A stretch of DNA of 64,000 nt from NCBI GenBank assembly GCA_028278525.1, contig JANQEE010000069.1, positions 1-64,000 of the forward strand, read 5' to 3'. A program made the position numbers and the translations under genes. This stretch comes from Minwuiaceae bacterium. GTDB lineage: Bacteria > Pseudomonadota > Alphaproteobacteria > Minwuiales > Minwuiaceae. Below are positions 2,978-36,358 of this stretch, one piece after another (positions within the stretch are counted from its first letter, which is position 1; every line of letters starts with the position of its first letter). The notes under the pieces were generated by a model. It worked only from the letters and a program-made list of their open reading frames with translations. It was not told the origin of the DNA and searched no databases.

Positions 2978-5581
2978 TCAAGCCGTGGCGAGTTCGCGGC
3001 CGCGACGGCCACGCTGCAGGAAGGCGACCAGACCCAGCAGCAGGAACGCCGGCAGATAGAATACTTCCGCCGGCATGCGTTCGGCCGGAACCTTGACCGA
3101 CAGGACCTTCCAGTCGAAGTCGAGCCCGGCCTTTTCCGCCGGCGTGTCGAAGCCGATATTGTCGACCAGCATCGCGCCGTCCTCCTCGCGCAACTCCAGC
3201 CCGGCGCCGGTGAGACGCGCCACACCATCGCCATCGGCCGGCAGCGGCAAGATGATCTGCTTGTTGATGATCTTGCCGGTCGCCATGTCCTCGCCTTCGA
3301 CCTGGAGCCGCAGGTCCGCCTCGCCCTCGATCCCGTCGATGACGGAGAAGACCTGCTTGCCGTCATGCACATCGAACGGCGCCTGCACCTGGTCCAGCCA
3401 ATAGCCGGGGCGGAACAGGGTGAACGCGATCAACAGCAACGCCACCGACTCCCATTTTCGGCTTCGGGCCACGAAATAGCCCTGCGTGGCGGCGGCGAAT
3501 ATCAGCATCGCCACCACCGCAATGACAATCGTAACCACCAGATCGACGGGGCCATTGATCCCGATCAAAAGCAGCTTGGTGTTGAAAATGAAGATGAACG
3601 GCAACGCCGCCGTCCGCATCGAGTAGAAAAACGCCTGGAAACCGGTCTTGATCGGATCGGCCCCGGATACCGCGGCGGCCGCGAACGACGCCAAGCCGAC
3701 CGGCGGCGTCACATCCGCCATGATACCGAAGTAGAAGACGAACAGATGCACGGCGATGAGCGGCACGATCAACCCGCTCTGCGCACCGAGCTCGACCACC
3801 ACGCCGGCCATCAGCGACGAGACCACAATGTAGTTGGCCGTGGTCGGCAGACCCATGCCGAGGATCAGGCTGATGATGGCGACGAAGATCAGCATCAGGA
3901 TGACGTTGCCGCCGGAAATGACCTCGACGAATTCGGTCATGACCTGACCGATGCCGGTCAGGCTGACGGTGCCGACGATGATGCCGGCCGCGGCAGTGGC
4001 GACGCCGATGCCGATCATGTTGCGGGCGCCGGCGATCAGGCCGTCGATCAGTTCGTCGAAACCCCGCCGCACGGCCGCGCCCATCGCGCCGTCGCCGCGA
4101 AACGCGCTGTAGATCGGCCGCTGGGTCAGCAGGATGAAGATCATCAATGCCGATGCCCAGAATGCCGACAGGCCGGGCGACAGACGCTCGATCATCAAAC
4201 ACCAGATCAGCACGATGATCGGCAGCAGGAAGTGCAATCCCGTCCTGGATGTCGGACCGAATTCCGGCAGCTCGACAACCGGCGAATTCGGGTCGTCCAG
4301 CTCCAGTTCCGGATACTTGGCGGCAAACCGCATCAGGGCGACGTAAACCACGCCGATAACAATCGCGATGACGTAGGAGGCGCCGTCACCGAACAGCTGC
4401 TTGACCCAGCCGACGCCGAAATAGACGGCGGCGACGAGTATGGCCGTCGCGATGATGCCGATGGCGAAACCGTTGACCCGCTGCAACAGGGTTTTCGCCG
4501 CGCCGCGCGACGGCAGTCCCTGCATGTTCGCCTTCAACGCTTCCAAATGCACGATGTAGAGCAGGGCGATATAGGAGATCACGGCGGGCAGGAAGGCGTG
4601 CTTGATCACCTCTACGTAAGAGATGCCGACATACTCGACCATCAGGAAGGCGGCCGCGCCCATCACCGGCGGCATGATCTGCCCGTTCACCGACGAGGCA
4701 ACCTCCACGGCGCCCGCCTTCTCGCCCGAGAAGCCGACGCGCTTCATCAGCGGGATGGTGAAGGTGCCGGTCGTCACCGTGTTGGCGATGGACGAGCCGG
4801 AAATAAGGCCGGTCATGCCCGACGCCAGGACGGCCGCCTTGGCCGGTCCGCCGCGCATATGGCCGAGCAGCGAAAATGCGACCTGGATGAAATAGTTGCC
4901 CGCGCCGGCCTTATCCAGCAGCGAGCCGAACAGGACGAAGAGAAACACGAAGCTGGTCGAAACGCCGAGCGCGATGCCGAACACGCCCTCCGTCGTCAGC
5001 CACTGGTGCGACATCGCCTTGGCGAACGAGGCGCCCTTCCAGGCGATCACATCCGGCGCCAGATGGCCGAAGAACACATAGGTCAGGAAGACCGCGGCCA
5101 CCACCATCAACGGCGGGCCGAGGGCGCGGCGGGTCGCTTCGAGCAGCAGAACCATGCCGATGCCGGCGGTCCACAGGTCCATCTGGTTCGGGTTGCCGGG
5201 CCGGTCGGACAGCGACCCGTAGAACAGAAACAGATAGCCGGCGCAAAACGCCCCGGCCAGCGCCATGACCCAATCCTGGATCGGAATCCTGTCGCGCGGG
5301 CTGCGCTTCATGGCCGGATAGGCGAGGAAGGCGAGGAAGACGGCCAAAGCCAGATGAATCGAGCGCGCCTGCGTGTCGTTCAGGACCGGAATGATGTTGG
5401 CCACCATGAACGGCAGCGGCGATGCGTACCAAAGCTGGAACAGGGACCAGGCCAGCGCGACGCCAAGCAGTATCTTGGAACTCAGGCCGGACGGCGCGCG
5501 AGCCCCCGTGTCGGTCGACGCAACCAAATCCTGCAGCGCATCGTCGGACATCGGATCTTTGTCGGTTTTCTGATCACTCAT
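2978..5581 (-). CDS. TRAP transporter fused permease (4TM-12TM), DUF3394 C-terminus
   Basis: An 867-residue integral membrane protein fusing the small (DctQ-like) and large (DctM-like) TRAP subunits, as in TAXI-type transporters. After a polar N-terminus of ~30 residues come many hydrophobic helices. Family segments include GNYFIQVAFSLLGHMRGG, SGSSIANTVTTGTFTIPLM and GMGLPTTANYIV. After the last helical bundle a ~110-residue soluble segment (from about residue 715) matches DUF3394 and ends with one more hydrophobic helix. It would drive Na+- or H+-coupled uptake of an organic acid or similar solute delivered by the two TAXI proteins encoded upstream. Substrate cannot be read from sequence. 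Confidence 0.93.
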   Translation of the reverse strand: MSDQKTDKDPMSDDALQDLVASTDTGARAPSGLSSKILLGVALAWSLFQLWYASPLPFMVANIIPVLNDTQARSIHLALAVFLAFLAYPAMKRSPRDRIPIQDWVMALAGAFCAGYLFLFYGSLSDRPGNPNQMDLWTAGIGMVLLLEATRRALGPPLMVVAAVFLTYVFFGHLAPDVIAWKGASFAKAMSHQWLTTEGVFGIALGVSTSFVFLFVLFGSLLDKAGAGNYFIQVAFSLLGHMRGGPAKAAVLASGMTGLISGSSIANTVTTGTFTIPLMKRVGFSGEKAGAVEVASSVNGQIMPPVMGAAAFLMVEYVGISYVEVIKHAFLPAVISYIALLYIVHLEALKANMQGLPSRGAAKTLLQRVNGFAIGIIATAILVAAVYFGVGWVKQLFGDGASYVIAIVIGVVYVALMRFAAKYPELELDDPNSPVVELPEFGPTSRTGLHFLLPIIVLIWCLMIERLSPGLSAFWASALMIFILLTQRPIYSAFRGDGAMGAAVRRGFDELIDGLIAGARNMIGIGVATAAAGIIVGTVSLTGIGQVMTEFVEVISGGNVILMLIFVAIISLILGMGLPTTANYIVVSSLMAGVVVELGAQSGLIVPLIAVHLFVFYFGIMADVTPPVGLASFAAAAVSGADPIKTGFQAFFYSMRTAALPFIFIFNTKLLLIGINGPVDLVVTIVIAVVAMLIFAAATQGYFVARSRKWESVALLLIAFTLFRPGYWLDQVQAPFDVHDGKQVFSVIDGIEGEADLRLQVEGEDMATGKIINKQIILPLPADGDGVARLTGAGLELREEDGAMLVDNIGFDTPAEKAGLDFDWKVLSVKVPAERMPAEVFYLPAFLLLGLVAFLQRGRRGRELATA

Positions 5582-15210: not shown

Positions 15211-16251
15211 ATGCGACCGTCTCCGCCGCGCCGAAAGGCGCGTTCCGTCTTACAAGGACTACAGCAATCACTTCGGCTGCCTTTCGCGGCCGCCTTCTTT
15301 TGCCTGATAGCGTCGGCAGCCACCGCCGACACGCGAAGCGAGGGCGCAGCCCTGGTGTCCGCGGTGGTTCGTCTGAGCGCGGAGATTCCGCCCGACGCCC
15401 GCACCGCCGCCGGACTGGGTACGCAGCGCGACGGCAACGGCGTCGTCATCGACGACAGCGGCCTGATCCTGACCATCGGCTATCTGATCCTGGAAGCGAT
15501 GACGGTGACGGCGTTCACCGCGGACGGCAAGCCGGTGCCGGCCGACATCCTGGCTTACGACTACGACACCGGGTTCGGGCTGGTGCGCGCGCTGTCGCCG
15601 CTGAACGTGAAGCCGATAGCGATCGGCGATTCGGACACCGTGAACGAGAGGGACCCCATCATCGTCGCCGGACATGGCGGCGTCGACAGCGCCATCGGCG
15701 CGATGGTCGTATCGCGACGCGAGTTCGCCGGCTATTGGGAATACCTGCTGGACAACGCGATCTTCACCTCGCCGCCGCATCCGAACTGGGGCGGCACGGC
15801 GCTGATAAACCTGGACGGTGAACTGGTCGGAATCGGATCGCTGATCGTCAACGACGCGCTGCCCGCGACACGCCCGATACCGGGCAATATGTTCGTGCCG
15901 ATCAATCTGCTGAAGCCGGTGTTCGCGGACCTGCTGGAATCGGGCCGCGCCGGCGGGCCGCAACGCCCCTGGCTTGGTATTTTTACCGCCGAGCAGGCCG
16001 GCCAAGTGGTGGTCACGCGGGTCGCGCCGAACGGTCCGGGCGCCAAGGCGGGCCTGCAGCCGGGCGACCGGGTGATCGGCGTCGGACCCGAGCCCGTCGG
16101 TTCCATGGCGGACTTTTTCCGCAAAATCTGGGATATCGGCCCGGCCGGATCGGACATTCCCGTCAACGTCCTTCGCGACGGGCAGCCATACAGTATCGTG
16201 ATCGCGTCCGGCGACAGATACGACTATTTGAAACTGAAGCCATCTTATTGA
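15211..16251 (+). CDS. HtrA/DegP-like S1C protein with PDZ domain, catalytic triad lost
   Basis: A 346-residue exported protein. A signal or anchor helix (LPFAAAFFCLIASAA, near residue 31) is followed by a trypsin-like fold and one PDZ domain (residues ~245-335; PWLGIF, VVVTRVAPNGPGAKAGLQPGDRV). Aligning by eye to HtrA, the catalytic His block (LTNNHVV) reads LTIGYLI, the Asp block (DxxTDIAVL) reads YDYDTGFGLV, and the Ser block (GNSGGPLVN) reads PNWGGTALIN. All three triad residues appear replaced while the fold motifs stay. It is therefore probably a peptide-binding pseudoprotease or scaffold in the periplasm. The gene stands alone. Confidence 0.82.
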   Translation: MRPSPPRRKARSVLQGLQQSLRLPFAAAFFCLIASAATADTRSEGAALVSAVVRLSAEIPPDARTAAGLGTQRDGNGVVIDDSGLILTIGYLILEAMTVTAFTADGKPVPADILAYDYDTGFGLVRALSPLNVKPIAIGDSDTVNERDPIIVAGHGGVDSAIGAMVVSRREFAGYWEYLLDNAIFTSPPHPNWGGTALINLDGELVGIGSLIVNDALPATRPIPGNMFVPINLLKPVFADLLESGRAGGPQRPWLGIFTAEQAGQVVVTRVAPNGPGAKAGLQPGDRVIGVGPEPVGSMADFFRKIWDIGPAGSDIPVNVLRDGQPYSIVIASGDRYDYLKLKPSY

Positions 16252-16489: not shown

Positions 16490-18211
16490 ATGCGCCGCTC
16501 ACCGATCAACGTTTTGGTGATTGACCGCACCGGCCTCCGCGCCGCAGTCGACATTGCGGGTACGGGCGCCTTTGCCGGCCTGAGCCTGACGTTTGCAGGC
16601 GACGACGGCGCGATCAACGCCGCGACGGAATCGGCCGATTGCGTTCTGGCCGAGCTGGCCGATGGCCCGGACGCGGCGGACGCGGTCCTAAGGCGCATTC
16701 GCGGCCACGGGATCGACGCGCCGGTCATCCTGGTCGGGCACAATGCGACCGCCGACGAGGCGGTGCGGTTTCTAAGAGCCGGCGCGGCGGACTACCTGGA
16801 CATAACCGAAATCGGGGCTCTGCGGCTTTCCTGTTCGGTATGGAACGCCGTGCGCGCCGGAAACGTCGTTCGCAGGCTGGCGGAAGCCGAAGGCCAGCAA
16901 AACCGTGACGCCATGCATGACGGATTGACCGGCCTGCCGAACAGGCAGCTTTTTTTCGACCGCCTGGACATGTCGATGACCCTGGCGGAACGGGAAGGCA
17001 GATCGCTGGCACTGTTGATGCTCGACCTCAACGGCCTGGACGCCGTGACCCGGGCGTTCGGCCAGGCGACGTGCGACGGTCTGTTGCGGCAGGTCGCGGA
17101 ACGGCTGCGCCCCATGCTGCGCTCCTCGGACGCCCTGGCCCGGCTGGACGACGACGAATTCGCCATCACCCTGCCGACCGGCGCATCGCTGACCGGGGCG
17201 GCGACGGCGGCCGACAAGATCCTGGACAGCGTGCGACAGCCCTATGAGGTGGCCGGGCATTCGCTGACGATAAGCGCCAACCTGGGGATCGCGCTGTTCC
17301 CGGCGCACGGCGCCAGAGCCGGCCAAATCGCCAGCCGCGCCGAGGCGGCGATGCGGCAGGCGCAACAATCCGAAGCCGCCTATGTCATCTACACCGGCGA
17401 AGGCGACTCGGACGGCAACGGGTCGCCTTCCCTGGTGCACGACCTGGCATCGGCCGTGGAGCGCGGCGAAATCGCGTTGCACTACCAGCCCAAGGTTTCG
17501 ATGCCGCAGTCCCGTGTCTGCGGTGTCGAAGCGTTGGCGCGATGGCAGCATCCGACGAAGGGCATGATCTGCCCGGACGAGTTCGTCCCGCTGGCCGAAC
17601 AATCGGGCCTGATCGAACCGCTGACGCAATGGGTGCTGGACGCATCGCTGACCCAGTTGGCGGCCTGGCGGAAATCCGGATTGGACCTGACGATATCTGT
17701 GAACCTGTCCGCCAAGTCGCTGCACAGCCACGACCTTGCCAAACGGATCGAAGCGACGCTTGGCGCCTTGAGGCTGGCACCCGACACGCTGATGCTGGAA
17801 ATCACCGAAAGCGCGATCATTTCCGACGCGCCGCGCGCGCGGCAAACCGTGGCCGAGCTGCACGAAATGGGCATCGCCATTTCGATCGACGATTTCGGCA
17901 CCGGCTACACGTCGCTGTCGCATGTGCGCGAACTGCCGGTACAGGAAATCAAGGTCGACAAATCCTTCGTCATGAATATGGCGCAGACGCCGGACGACCG
18001 GGTCATCGTCGGAACCCTGATCGAGTTGGGCCATAACCTGGGCCTGCAAGTGGTTGCCGAGGGTGTCGAAAACGCAGGCGTCTGGGAGATGCTGAACAAA
18101 CTGGGGTGCCACATCGCCCAGGGGTATTACATGAGCAAGCCGCTGGAAGCGGATGCGGTGCGCGAATGGGTCGCGAACTCGCCATGGGGCCTCGCCGCCG
18201 GCCAAGCGTGA
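16490..18211 (+). CDS. Cyclic-di-GMP phosphodiesterase (REC-like, degenerate GGDEF, EAL)
   Basis: A 573-residue signalling protein with three parts. Residues 1-~110 have a receiver-like fold (VLVIDRTGL, VILVGHNATADEAVRFLRAGAADYL), but the expected phospho-Asp position reads VLAELAD, so phosphorylation is doubtful. Residues ~140-300 are a GGDEF domain whose signature is RLDDDEF instead of RGGDEF, so no cyclase activity is expected. Residues ~315-565 are an EAL domain with EALARW, ITESAI, DDFGTGYTSLSHV, KVDKSFV and EGVE all intact, so c-di-GMP hydrolysis is likely. A TTG two codons earlier (16484) is an alternative start. Confidence 0.9.
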   Translation: MRRSPINVLVIDRTGLRAAVDIAGTGAFAGLSLTFAGDDGAINAATESADCVLAELADGPDAADAVLRRIRGHGIDAPVILVGHNATADEAVRFLRAGAADYLDITEIGALRLSCSVWNAVRAGNVVRRLAEAEGQQNRDAMHDGLTGLPNRQLFFDRLDMSMTLAEREGRSLALLMLDLNGLDAVTRAFGQATCDGLLRQVAERLRPMLRSSDALARLDDDEFAITLPTGASLTGAATAADKILDSVRQPYEVAGHSLTISANLGIALFPAHGARAGQIASRAEAAMRQAQQSEAAYVIYTGEGDSDGNGSPSLVHDLASAVERGEIALHYQPKVSMPQSRVCGVEALARWQHPTKGMICPDEFVPLAEQSGLIEPLTQWVLDASLTQLAAWRKSGLDLTISVNLSAKSLHSHDLAKRIEATLGALRLAPDTLMLEITESAIISDAPRARQTVAELHEMGIAISIDDFGTGYTSLSHVRELPVQEIKVDKSFVMNMAQTPDDRVIVGTLIELGHNLGLQVVAEGVENAGVWEMLNKLGCHIAQGYYMSKPLEADAVREWVANSPWGLAAGQA

Positions 18212-19516: not shown

Positions 19517-20098
19517 GTGCAGCAATACGGCCCGGCGGTAACACTGGAGGATCCGGCGTTCATTCATCCGAGTGCCGAGATCTACGGGAAAGTGTCGATC
19601 GGCAAAGGCGCGTCGGTTTGGATAAACGCGGCGATCCGCAGCGAGAGCCAGGAAATCACGATCGGCGACTACACCAACATCCAGGACTTCGTCATGCTGC
19701 ATGTCGGGTACGGAAAAGGCGTGCATGTCGGTCGCCATTGCTCGATCACGCACCATGTCACACTGCATGGCTGCACGGTGGGCGACAATTGCCTGATCGG
19801 CATCAACTCGACGATCATGGACGGATGCGTCATCGGCGACAATTGCATCGTCGGCGCGCATACATTTCTGAAGGAAGGAACGGTCATCCCCGAGAATTCG
19901 ATCGTCGCCGGCTCCCCCGGCGCGGTCAGGAAGACCCGCAACAGTTTTGTCGAGAACCGGATGAACGCGTTCTTCTATTACCATAACGCTCTCGCCTATG
20001 CTGAGGGCAACCACCGCCGGTGGCAGGACCCGGATTTCCTGGAACTGGCGGGCAAGGAAATGGAGAAACTGCGCGCGAAACTGGCGGAAGTGTCTTAG
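19517..20098 (+). CDS. Gamma-carbonic anhydrase family hexapeptide-repeat protein
   Basis: A 193-residue left-handed beta-helix protein built of hexapeptide turns (VSIGKGASVWINAAI, TIGDYTNIQDFVML, TVGDNCLIGINSTIMDG, VIGDNCIVGAHTFL). The histidine positions that bind metal in gamma-carbonic anhydrases appear in HVGYGKGVHVGRHCSITHHVTLHG. The C-terminus is a short helix. It starts with GTG after GAGGGAGGA. Many close relatives (YrdA/PaaY/CaiE group) lack measurable carbonic anhydrase activity, so the enzymatic role is uncertain. It is cytoplasmic and presumably trimeric. Confidence 0.9.
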   Translation: MQQYGPAVTLEDPAFIHPSAEIYGKVSIGKGASVWINAAIRSESQEITIGDYTNIQDFVMLHVGYGKGVHVGRHCSITHHVTLHGCTVGDNCLIGINSTIMDGCVIGDNCIVGAHTFLKEGTVIPENSIVAGSPGAVRKTRNSFVENRMNAFFYYHNALAYAEGNHRRWQDPDFLELAGKEMEKLRAKLAEVS

Positions 20099-20105
20099 TC
20101 GGGTT

Positions 20106-20189
20106 GCCCTGCCGGCCCGCTCCCCCGTCCCAACCACCCACACAGGGTACCCTATGGGTGGTTGGGACGGGGGAGCGGGCCGGCAGGGC
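20106..20189. repeat. 84-bp palindromic repeat element, copy 1
   Basis: Two 35-base arms (20106-20140 and 20155-20189) are perfectly complementary. They flank a 14-base loop that itself contains the palindrome AGGGTACCCT. A second copy lies at 36274-36358; the arms differ by one compensated pair (C-G here, A-T there) and the loops by one base. It sits between the gamma-carbonic anhydrase and dgcN genes and could also block transcription. There is no transposase. Confidence 0.9.
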
Positions 20190-20246: not shown

Positions 20247-21239
20247 ATGGATCATCCGTACCTGATGTTCCTTGGCGACGTCGCCGATCAACTGGCGGCC
20301 AAGACCGCCGACGGCATCGTCTATTGGCGGGCGGAATGGTGCGTCGGCCAGGTTCGGCTGGACGGCTGCGCGGCGGATGTCCGGCTGCCGGATATGAGCA
20401 TCGAGGACGGCGCCAAACTGGGCGCCAAGACGATGGTTATCGGCGTGGCCAATTCGGGCGGCTTTTTGCCGGACCATTGGATCGAGTCGATCACCCGCGC
20501 GCTTGAATTGGGCATGGACGTGGCGTCCGGCCTGCATGTCCGTCTGGCCGACATCGAGCCGATCCGGCTGGCCGCCGAAAAGCATGGCCGCAGCCTGTTC
20601 GACGCACGGCATCCCACGCGGACCTTCGCGACCGGCACCGGCGTGAAGCGGACCGGCAAGCGCATGCTGGCGGTCGGCACCGATTGTTCCGTCGGCAAGA
20701 TGTACACCGCCTTGGCCGTCGAGAAGGAAATGCAGGCGCGCGGCATGAAGTCCGCTTTCCGCGCCACCGGCCAGACCGGCATCTTCATCGCCGGCGACGG
20801 CGTCTCCATCGATGCGGTGGTCGCCGACTTCATATCCGGCGCGGTCGAGTGGCTGAGCCCGGACGTGGACCCGGACCAATGGGACCTGATCGAGGGCCAG
20901 GGATCGCTGTTCCATCCGGCATTCGCCGGTGTGTCGCTGGGCCTGCTGCACGGCGCGCAGGCCGATGCGCTGGTGCTGTGCCACGAGCCGACGCGGCAGC
21001 ATATGCGCGGGCTGCCGCAACAGCCGTTGCCGGACTTGAAAGAGTGCATCGACCTGAACCTCGCGACCGCGCGGCTGACCAACCCGAACGCCAAGTTCGT
21101 CGGGGTCAGCGTCAACACCTCCCATCTGGACGAAGCCGCCGCCGCGGCGTACCAGGACAAGACCGAACAGGAACTGGGCCTGCCCTGCGTCGACCCGCAC
21201 ACCACCGGGGTCGGCCGTCTGGTCGATGCCATGGACTGA
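20247..21239 (+). CDS. dgcN: D-glutamate N-acetyltransferase DgcN (DUF1611)
   Basis: A 330-residue DUF1611 protein. It has an N-terminal region (residues 1-~125) and a C-terminal P-loop-like domain with AVGTDCSVGKMYTALAVEKEM near residue 147 and EGQGSLFHPAFAGVSLGLLHG near residue 215. DUF1611 members paired with an enolase-superfamily racemase were characterised in marine bacteria as DgcN, which acetylates D-glutamate to N-acetyl-D-glutamate. Here the racemase gene follows six bases downstream, which supports that assignment. The ATG follows CAGGAGGTAACAC. The DgcR activator described elsewhere is not adjacent. Confidence 0.85.
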   Translation: MDHPYLMFLGDVADQLAAKTADGIVYWRAEWCVGQVRLDGCAADVRLPDMSIEDGAKLGAKTMVIGVANSGGFLPDHWIESITRALELGMDVASGLHVRLADIEPIRLAAEKHGRSLFDARHPTRTFATGTGVKRTGKRMLAVGTDCSVGKMYTALAVEKEMQARGMKSAFRATGQTGIFIAGDGVSIDAVVADFISGAVEWLSPDVDPDQWDLIEGQGSLFHPAFAGVSLGLLHGAQADALVLCHEPTRQHMRGLPQQPLPDLKECIDLNLATARLTNPNAKFVGVSVNTSHLDEAAAAAYQDKTEQELGLPCVDPHTTGVGRLVDAMD

Positions 21240-36273: not shown

Positions 36274-36358
36274 GCCATGCCGGCCCGCTCCCCCGTCCCA
36301 ACCACCCACACGAGGGTACCCTATGGGTGGTTGGGACGGGGGAGCGGGCCGGCATGGC
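36274..36358. repeat. 85-bp palindromic repeat element, copy 2
   Basis: Arms 36274-36308 and 36324-36358 are perfect 35-base inverted repeats with a 15-base loop. Compared with copy 1 at 20106 the loop has one extra G, and one base pair near the tips is A-T instead of C-G, so pairing is preserved. It lies between the ends of two convergent genes (the C4 zinc-finger gene and an SDR). Confidence 0.9.

Follow-up and report, generated by a model that had tools for sequence, protein, structure and literature searches.

HtrA-fold pseudoproteases are already a known kind of protein, of which MamO and PflC are examples. In the available sections of the published description (PMC4794232), MamO is an HtrA relative that has lost catalysis and gained a new function, with changes in the Ser loop similar to those reported below. 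PflC, from Campylobacter, is presented in the accessible text of PMC12222027 as an HtrA relative that has turned into a scaffold. A survey of prokaryotic serine proteases counts, in the portion available, 42 inactive homologues in 91 genomes (PMC2605481), while the term 'pseudoprotease' has zero occurrences in the accessible part of the HtrA review PMC11642142. Neither the family described here nor its pairing across two compartments was found in the literature searched, which mostly excluded subscription journals.

The window analysed is the whole stretch of 64,000 nucleotides from the Minwuiaceae bacterium. A first-pass annotation, made from the letters of the sequence, had proposed that one of its genes encodes an HtrA-like protein in which all three catalytic residues are replaced, a maintained pseudoprotease that binds peptides and perhaps regulates a true DegP. 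The features of that gene and of its product are as follows.

15211..16251, + strand: pseudoprotease gene, 346 aa plus stop; the ORF coordinates match those of the first-pass annotation exactly
15211..15327, + strand: probable Sec signal peptide, residues 1-39, from a hydropathy rule and the sequence by eye
15433..15834, + strand: Trypsin_2 (chymotrypsin-fold) domain, residues 75-208 (Pfam 1.2e-14; AF2 model)
15481..15483, + strand: Tyr91, at the catalytic His position, from motif blocks and family alignment
15571..15573, + strand: Gly121, at the catalytic Asp position, from motif blocks and family alignment
15736..15744, + strand: Trp176-Glu177-Tyr178, a motif invariant across the family, from column conservation
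15781..15783, + strand: Pro191, at the oxyanion Gly position, from column conservation
15787..15789, + strand: Trp193, at the catalytic Ser position, from motif blocks and family alignment
15970..16194, + strand: PDZ domain, residues 254-328 (Pfam PDZ_2 1.1e-10)

The window copy is probably exported, as judged from its N-terminus, and our guess is that the signal peptide is cleaved after ATA. No promoter-like site was found upstream of the gene in a promoter and terminator scan. Both Pfam matches exceed the curated cut-offs, and the order of the domains, a Trypsin_2 fold and then a PDZ domain, is that of the HtrA (S1C) proteins. DegP entries are the best solved relatives by sequence. The NCBIfam models for DegP, DegS, DegQ and HtrA all match the window protein, well under their cut-offs; for TIGR02037 (Do/DegP) the score is 84.1 bits, below the cut-off of 416.2. 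The genome also encodes three HtrAs that score above this cut-off (470.6-510.1 bits), and the window protein is only 28-32% identical to them over the matched part. Structure prediction, a check proposed in the first-pass annotation, returned an ordinary fold resembling DegQ/DegP and Deg1. The AF2 model, a single chain built from 40 rows, has a pLDDT of 93.2 and a pTM of 0.90; Foldseek places DegQ and DegP on top (3.1e-22), and the top structure in VIA is Deg1 (Z 25.2, rmsd 5.6, 280 residues aligned). The high rmsd across two domains suggests that the domain angles of the model differ. The predicted structure of a member that lacks a signal peptide (L082) has the same fold, with a pLDDT of 93.6 and again Deg1 on top in VIA (Z 25.0, rmsd 5.7, 272 aligned).

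The three motifs on which the claim of lost catalysis was based (LTIGYLI, YDYDTGFGLV and PNWGGTALIN) are present letter for letter in the ORF. Catalytic positions were set by aligning these blocks with three HtrAs from this genome that have intact triads (L003-L005) and show ordinary catalytic residues there. The alignment puts Tyr, Gly and Trp at the His, Asp and Ser positions of the window protein, and the replacement of all three residues is thus confirmed. A further Trypsin_2-like protein of this genome (L006, G000 C57) keeps His and Ser and has Glu aligned at the Asp position.

It is apparent that the replacements are shared by the family. A complete triad was found in 0 of 219 distinct members, window included, a pattern that chance does not explain. 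The residues at the His, Asp and Ser positions are YGW in 164, YGF in 38 and YGY in 8, with FGF (3), YGH (3), FGW (1), FGH (1) and HGF (1) as rarer sets. Gly occupies the Asp position in 219/219, Tyr or Phe the His position in 218/219, and a ring residue (Trp, Phe, Tyr or His) the Ser position in 219/219; Asp or Ser is in place in 0/219. One member (L242) keeps His at the His position, with Gly and Phe in place of Asp and Ser. Of 218 rows, 5 retain the oxyanion Gly two positions ahead of Ser and 213 have another residue there. The triad is carried by no relative examined, and the window gene is not a lone decayed copy. On sequence grounds the whole family looks catalytically dead.

A triad elsewhere in the domain was also considered. 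The best His column has His in 83 of 124 non-redundant rows (67%), so that a conserved alternative Ser-His-Asp triad is absent by column counts, and a conserved His-based one was rejected. Cys columns reach at most 4% of the same rows. It is very improbable that the family still cuts by means of unusual residues. D117 and S210 are conserved at 98% and 96%, and dyads are used by some proteases; there is, however, no conserved His, the oxyanion Gly is nearly always replaced, and the fold of the AF2 model is ordinary.

The class-wide search (E<=1e-40) recovered members of the family in 94 of the 385 genomes sampled and in 68 of 277 genera; a phylum-wide search gave 35 of 398 genomes, two of them outside the class, and a near-kin search 13 of 41. 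Further members lie in some records with the titles Desulfobacterales, Deltaproteobacteria, Gammaproteobacteria or Acidiferrobacterales, and Azospirillum brasilense, a non-pathogenic host, has one as well. The contig scan of genomes kept 80 loci out of 112. The closest relative of the window gene is at 62%, with none nearer; a paralogue (L002, G000 C54:132835-133716), at 54% identity, likewise has Tyr, Gly and Trp and is signal-less. In a profile search of 13 genomes members scored 377-455 bits and the next HtrAs at most 104 bits. A tree of 114 members and five active HtrAs, made by a quick method under LG+G4, sets the members apart from the active HtrAs by a branch with full support. The family is, as far as these sequences go, one old clade of HtrA-fold pseudoproteases. 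'S1C family serine protease', the RefSeq name of two annotated members, is apparently a misnomer. HtrA proteases are probably overcounted in databases for Alphaproteobacteria, because members are annotated as serine proteases while the whole family looks dead.

Purifying selection on the family was evident from dN/dS, the second check that had been proposed: the median was 0.18 and the maximum 0.40 over 759 pairs with 0<dS<1.5, pairs that overlap and do not include the window gene. Reading frames are intact in nearly all matches of the class-wide search. Two single-contig genomes of 1.2 Mb, with a local GC of 31-32%, each keep one exported member (L144 in G098, L247 in G375), which points to selection in small genomes. 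Taken alone, the loss of the whole catalytic triad would be compatible with a decaying duplicate of an HtrA protease; that reading is extremely improbable in view of substitutions common to the 219 distinct members, a dN/dS of about 0.18 and the nearly always intact frames. The lone decayed copy was rejected for the family on the first two of these grounds. The proposal of a maintained pseudoprotease is well supported by family-wide substitutions, purifying selection, and a fold and PDZ domain that are kept. A retained HtrA fold, a lost triad and maintenance by selection, the marks of HtrA-fold pseudoproteases, which make up a kind and not a single homologous family, were all found here.

Conservation was scored in 271 columns over 124 non-redundant rows, and the columns were ranked. 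The invariant columns include R73, T88, G121, P188, G195 and the W176, E177 and Y178 of the WEY motif, identical in 124/124 rows; E95, N226, R336, Y91 and D117 are near-invariant. Within the cleft, G121 ranks 4, G90 14, G209 16, N226 17 and Y91 36 of 271. The cleft is not uniformly conserved, as columns 191 and 192 rank 155 and 246 and the Ser position, 193, ranks 93. The invariant R73 and WEY motif, together with the near-invariant columns, are compatible with a remodelled cleft that binds a small molecule or metal, the PDZ domain being secondary, and MamO is a precedent for this (PMC4794232, sections available). We consider this reading unlikely; no His or Cys column, at the frequencies given above, is fit for a classic metal site.

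Signal peptides were called by a home-made hydropathy rule, which is known to miss some and probably gave a false positive at least once (L088). By this rule 137 of 218 distinct members have no recognisable signal peptide, so that signal-less members are the commoner kind in the set. Among genomes of the class with two copies, 35 of 37 have one copy with a signal peptide and one without; in the remaining two (G157 and G131) both copies were called not exported, and by eye one copy in each is a likely missed signal peptide. Three genomes were excluded from the 37: G300, whose second match is partial with a stop, G313, with fragments, and G747, with a copy at a contig end. The fair-coin probability of at least 35 of 37 is 5e-9, a guide only, since the genomes are related. 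The 58 single-copy genomes of the class-wide search comprise 42 signal-less and 16 exported calls, and of the 42, L087 and L094 at the least appear, on inspection by eye, to be missed signal peptides. The pairing across compartments is not universal, because the two genomes behind the Desulfobacterota-labelled loci have two exported copies each. In two rhizobial members the RefSeq start lies 48 bases upstream of the position matching query residue 59, which leaves 16 residues and thus no room for a signal peptide.

Tandem pairs of an exported-type and a signal-less copy occur at L030, L043 and L073. At L073 (2842-4248) the exported copy is interrupted by TAG and the signal-less copy is intact; the fragment at 3850-4248, with key columns without letters, was excluded from the 156-row alignment. 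In the tree, the branches adjoining the outgroup are mostly exported. One clade of 49 rows consists wholly of signal-less members; the starred parent clade, with 51 rows, contains one exported call (L088), kept as called though its N-terminus resembles those of signal-less members; rows L143, L087/L008 and L090/L127 were reset by eye to 'signal peptide'. Further signal-less rows stand elsewhere (the Reyranella-type L027, the tandem copy L030 6976-8031 and several single rows). As these rows are scattered and the tree requires nine changes of state, signal loss probably occurred more than once, although some single rows may be misses.

The genes around the family members were read in neighbourhood sets dominated by Reyranella-type loci. 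The recurrent neighbours that were read, labelled by eye as a UvrD-type helicase, a PrmA-type methyltransferase, a metallo-beta-lactamase-fold protein and an FAD oxygenase, are housekeeping genes; nothing in them points to a function, and no conserved operon naming a client was found. A gene for a GGDEF-EAL protein (16490-18211) lies directly downstream of the window gene on the same strand; its cluster, c16, was seen in 6 of the 95 neighbourhood sets used, chiefly in the window's own family. Elsewhere in the window, a DUF1611-type protein (20247-21239) adjoins a hexapeptide-repeat protein (19517-20098). A near-perfect intergenic inverted repeat (20112-20183 and 36280-36352) is a dispersed REP-like palindrome: at up to 3 mismatches its arm matches the genome 99 times in forward and 99 times in reverse orientation, against 0 and 0 for a control, and some matches lie near contig ends.

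The suggestion that the protein regulates a true DegP gained no positive evidence. As a dominant-negative or allosteric regulator it would enter DegP oligomers or compete with DegP for peptides, and the genome does have three triad-intact HtrAs above the Do/DegP cut-off, as well as a window copy that is probably exported. We nevertheless regard this role as distinctly unlikely. Most members are signal-less and should therefore not meet periplasmic DegP, identity to the HtrAs of the same genome is low, and no recurrent degP neighbour was noticed in the neighbourhoods read. At best such a role could apply to the exported members, and periplasmic DegP regulation cannot by itself explain the pairing of exported and signal-less copies.

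The reading preferred here, to which we give about even credence on sequence evidence, is a non-catalytic adaptor or scaffold that would bind peptides through its PDZ domain, its remodelled cleft being plugged. Peptide binding is a plausible prediction, assumed from the PDZ family, a PDZ match having been found in 40 of 40 members scanned. The window protein would be an exported member that cuts no peptide bond; its PDZ domain would bind client proteins by their ends or exposed stretches, and the former substrate cleft, filled by aromatic rings, would be a fixed surface with a structural or ligand-binding role. After duplication, a sister copy would have lost its signal peptide and so come to lie in the cytosol. 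A broader proposal, offered tentatively and in our view unlikely, is a two-compartment system, in which the exported pseudoprotease was duplicated and its sister became cytosolic more than once, the pair recognising, on either side of the inner membrane, the ends of proteins or a ligand common to both copies. If true, an extracytoplasmic protease would have been turned into a general non-catalytic recognition module. The family is large and under purifying selection and, in the papers searched, is without an assigned function. One dead protease fold kept on either side of the inner membrane amounts to a natural experiment, and a client of the family would reveal what the HtrA fold and PDZ domain do without cutting.

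Several described proteins may be compared with the family, the first three from the sections of the sources that were available. VCO395_1035 of Vibrio cholerae, known from a computational study, is likewise DegQ-related with an atypical active site, but its N-terminal part, where His and Asp would lie, is missing, its Ser is retained, and the authors of the study argue for activity (PMC3575494). PflC is also a triad-less HtrA relative, exapted as a scaffold; it differs in being a periplasmic part of the flagellar medial disk with two PDZ-like domains (PMC12222027), the window protein having one PDZ stretch. MamO is a close parallel, as an alphaproteobacterial HtrA relative with a degenerate triad, a non-Gly residue at 193 and, in loop L1, a bulky Trp; it differs in its Thr at the nucleophile position, its transporter domain and its di-His metal site (PMC4794232). 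Membership of the MamO family was rejected, NF040961 (cut-off 800 bits) having no match to the window protein at E<=1, and a MamO-type surface di-histidine site was not found in the column counts, where no His column exceeds the 67% already given. With DegP, DegQ, DegS and Deg1 (HtrA, S1C) the family shares a chymotrypsin fold followed by PDZ and three catalytic blocks that align; it differs from them in that the triad is absent, the oxyanion Gly is usually gone, the WEY motif is invariant and signal-less copies are common.
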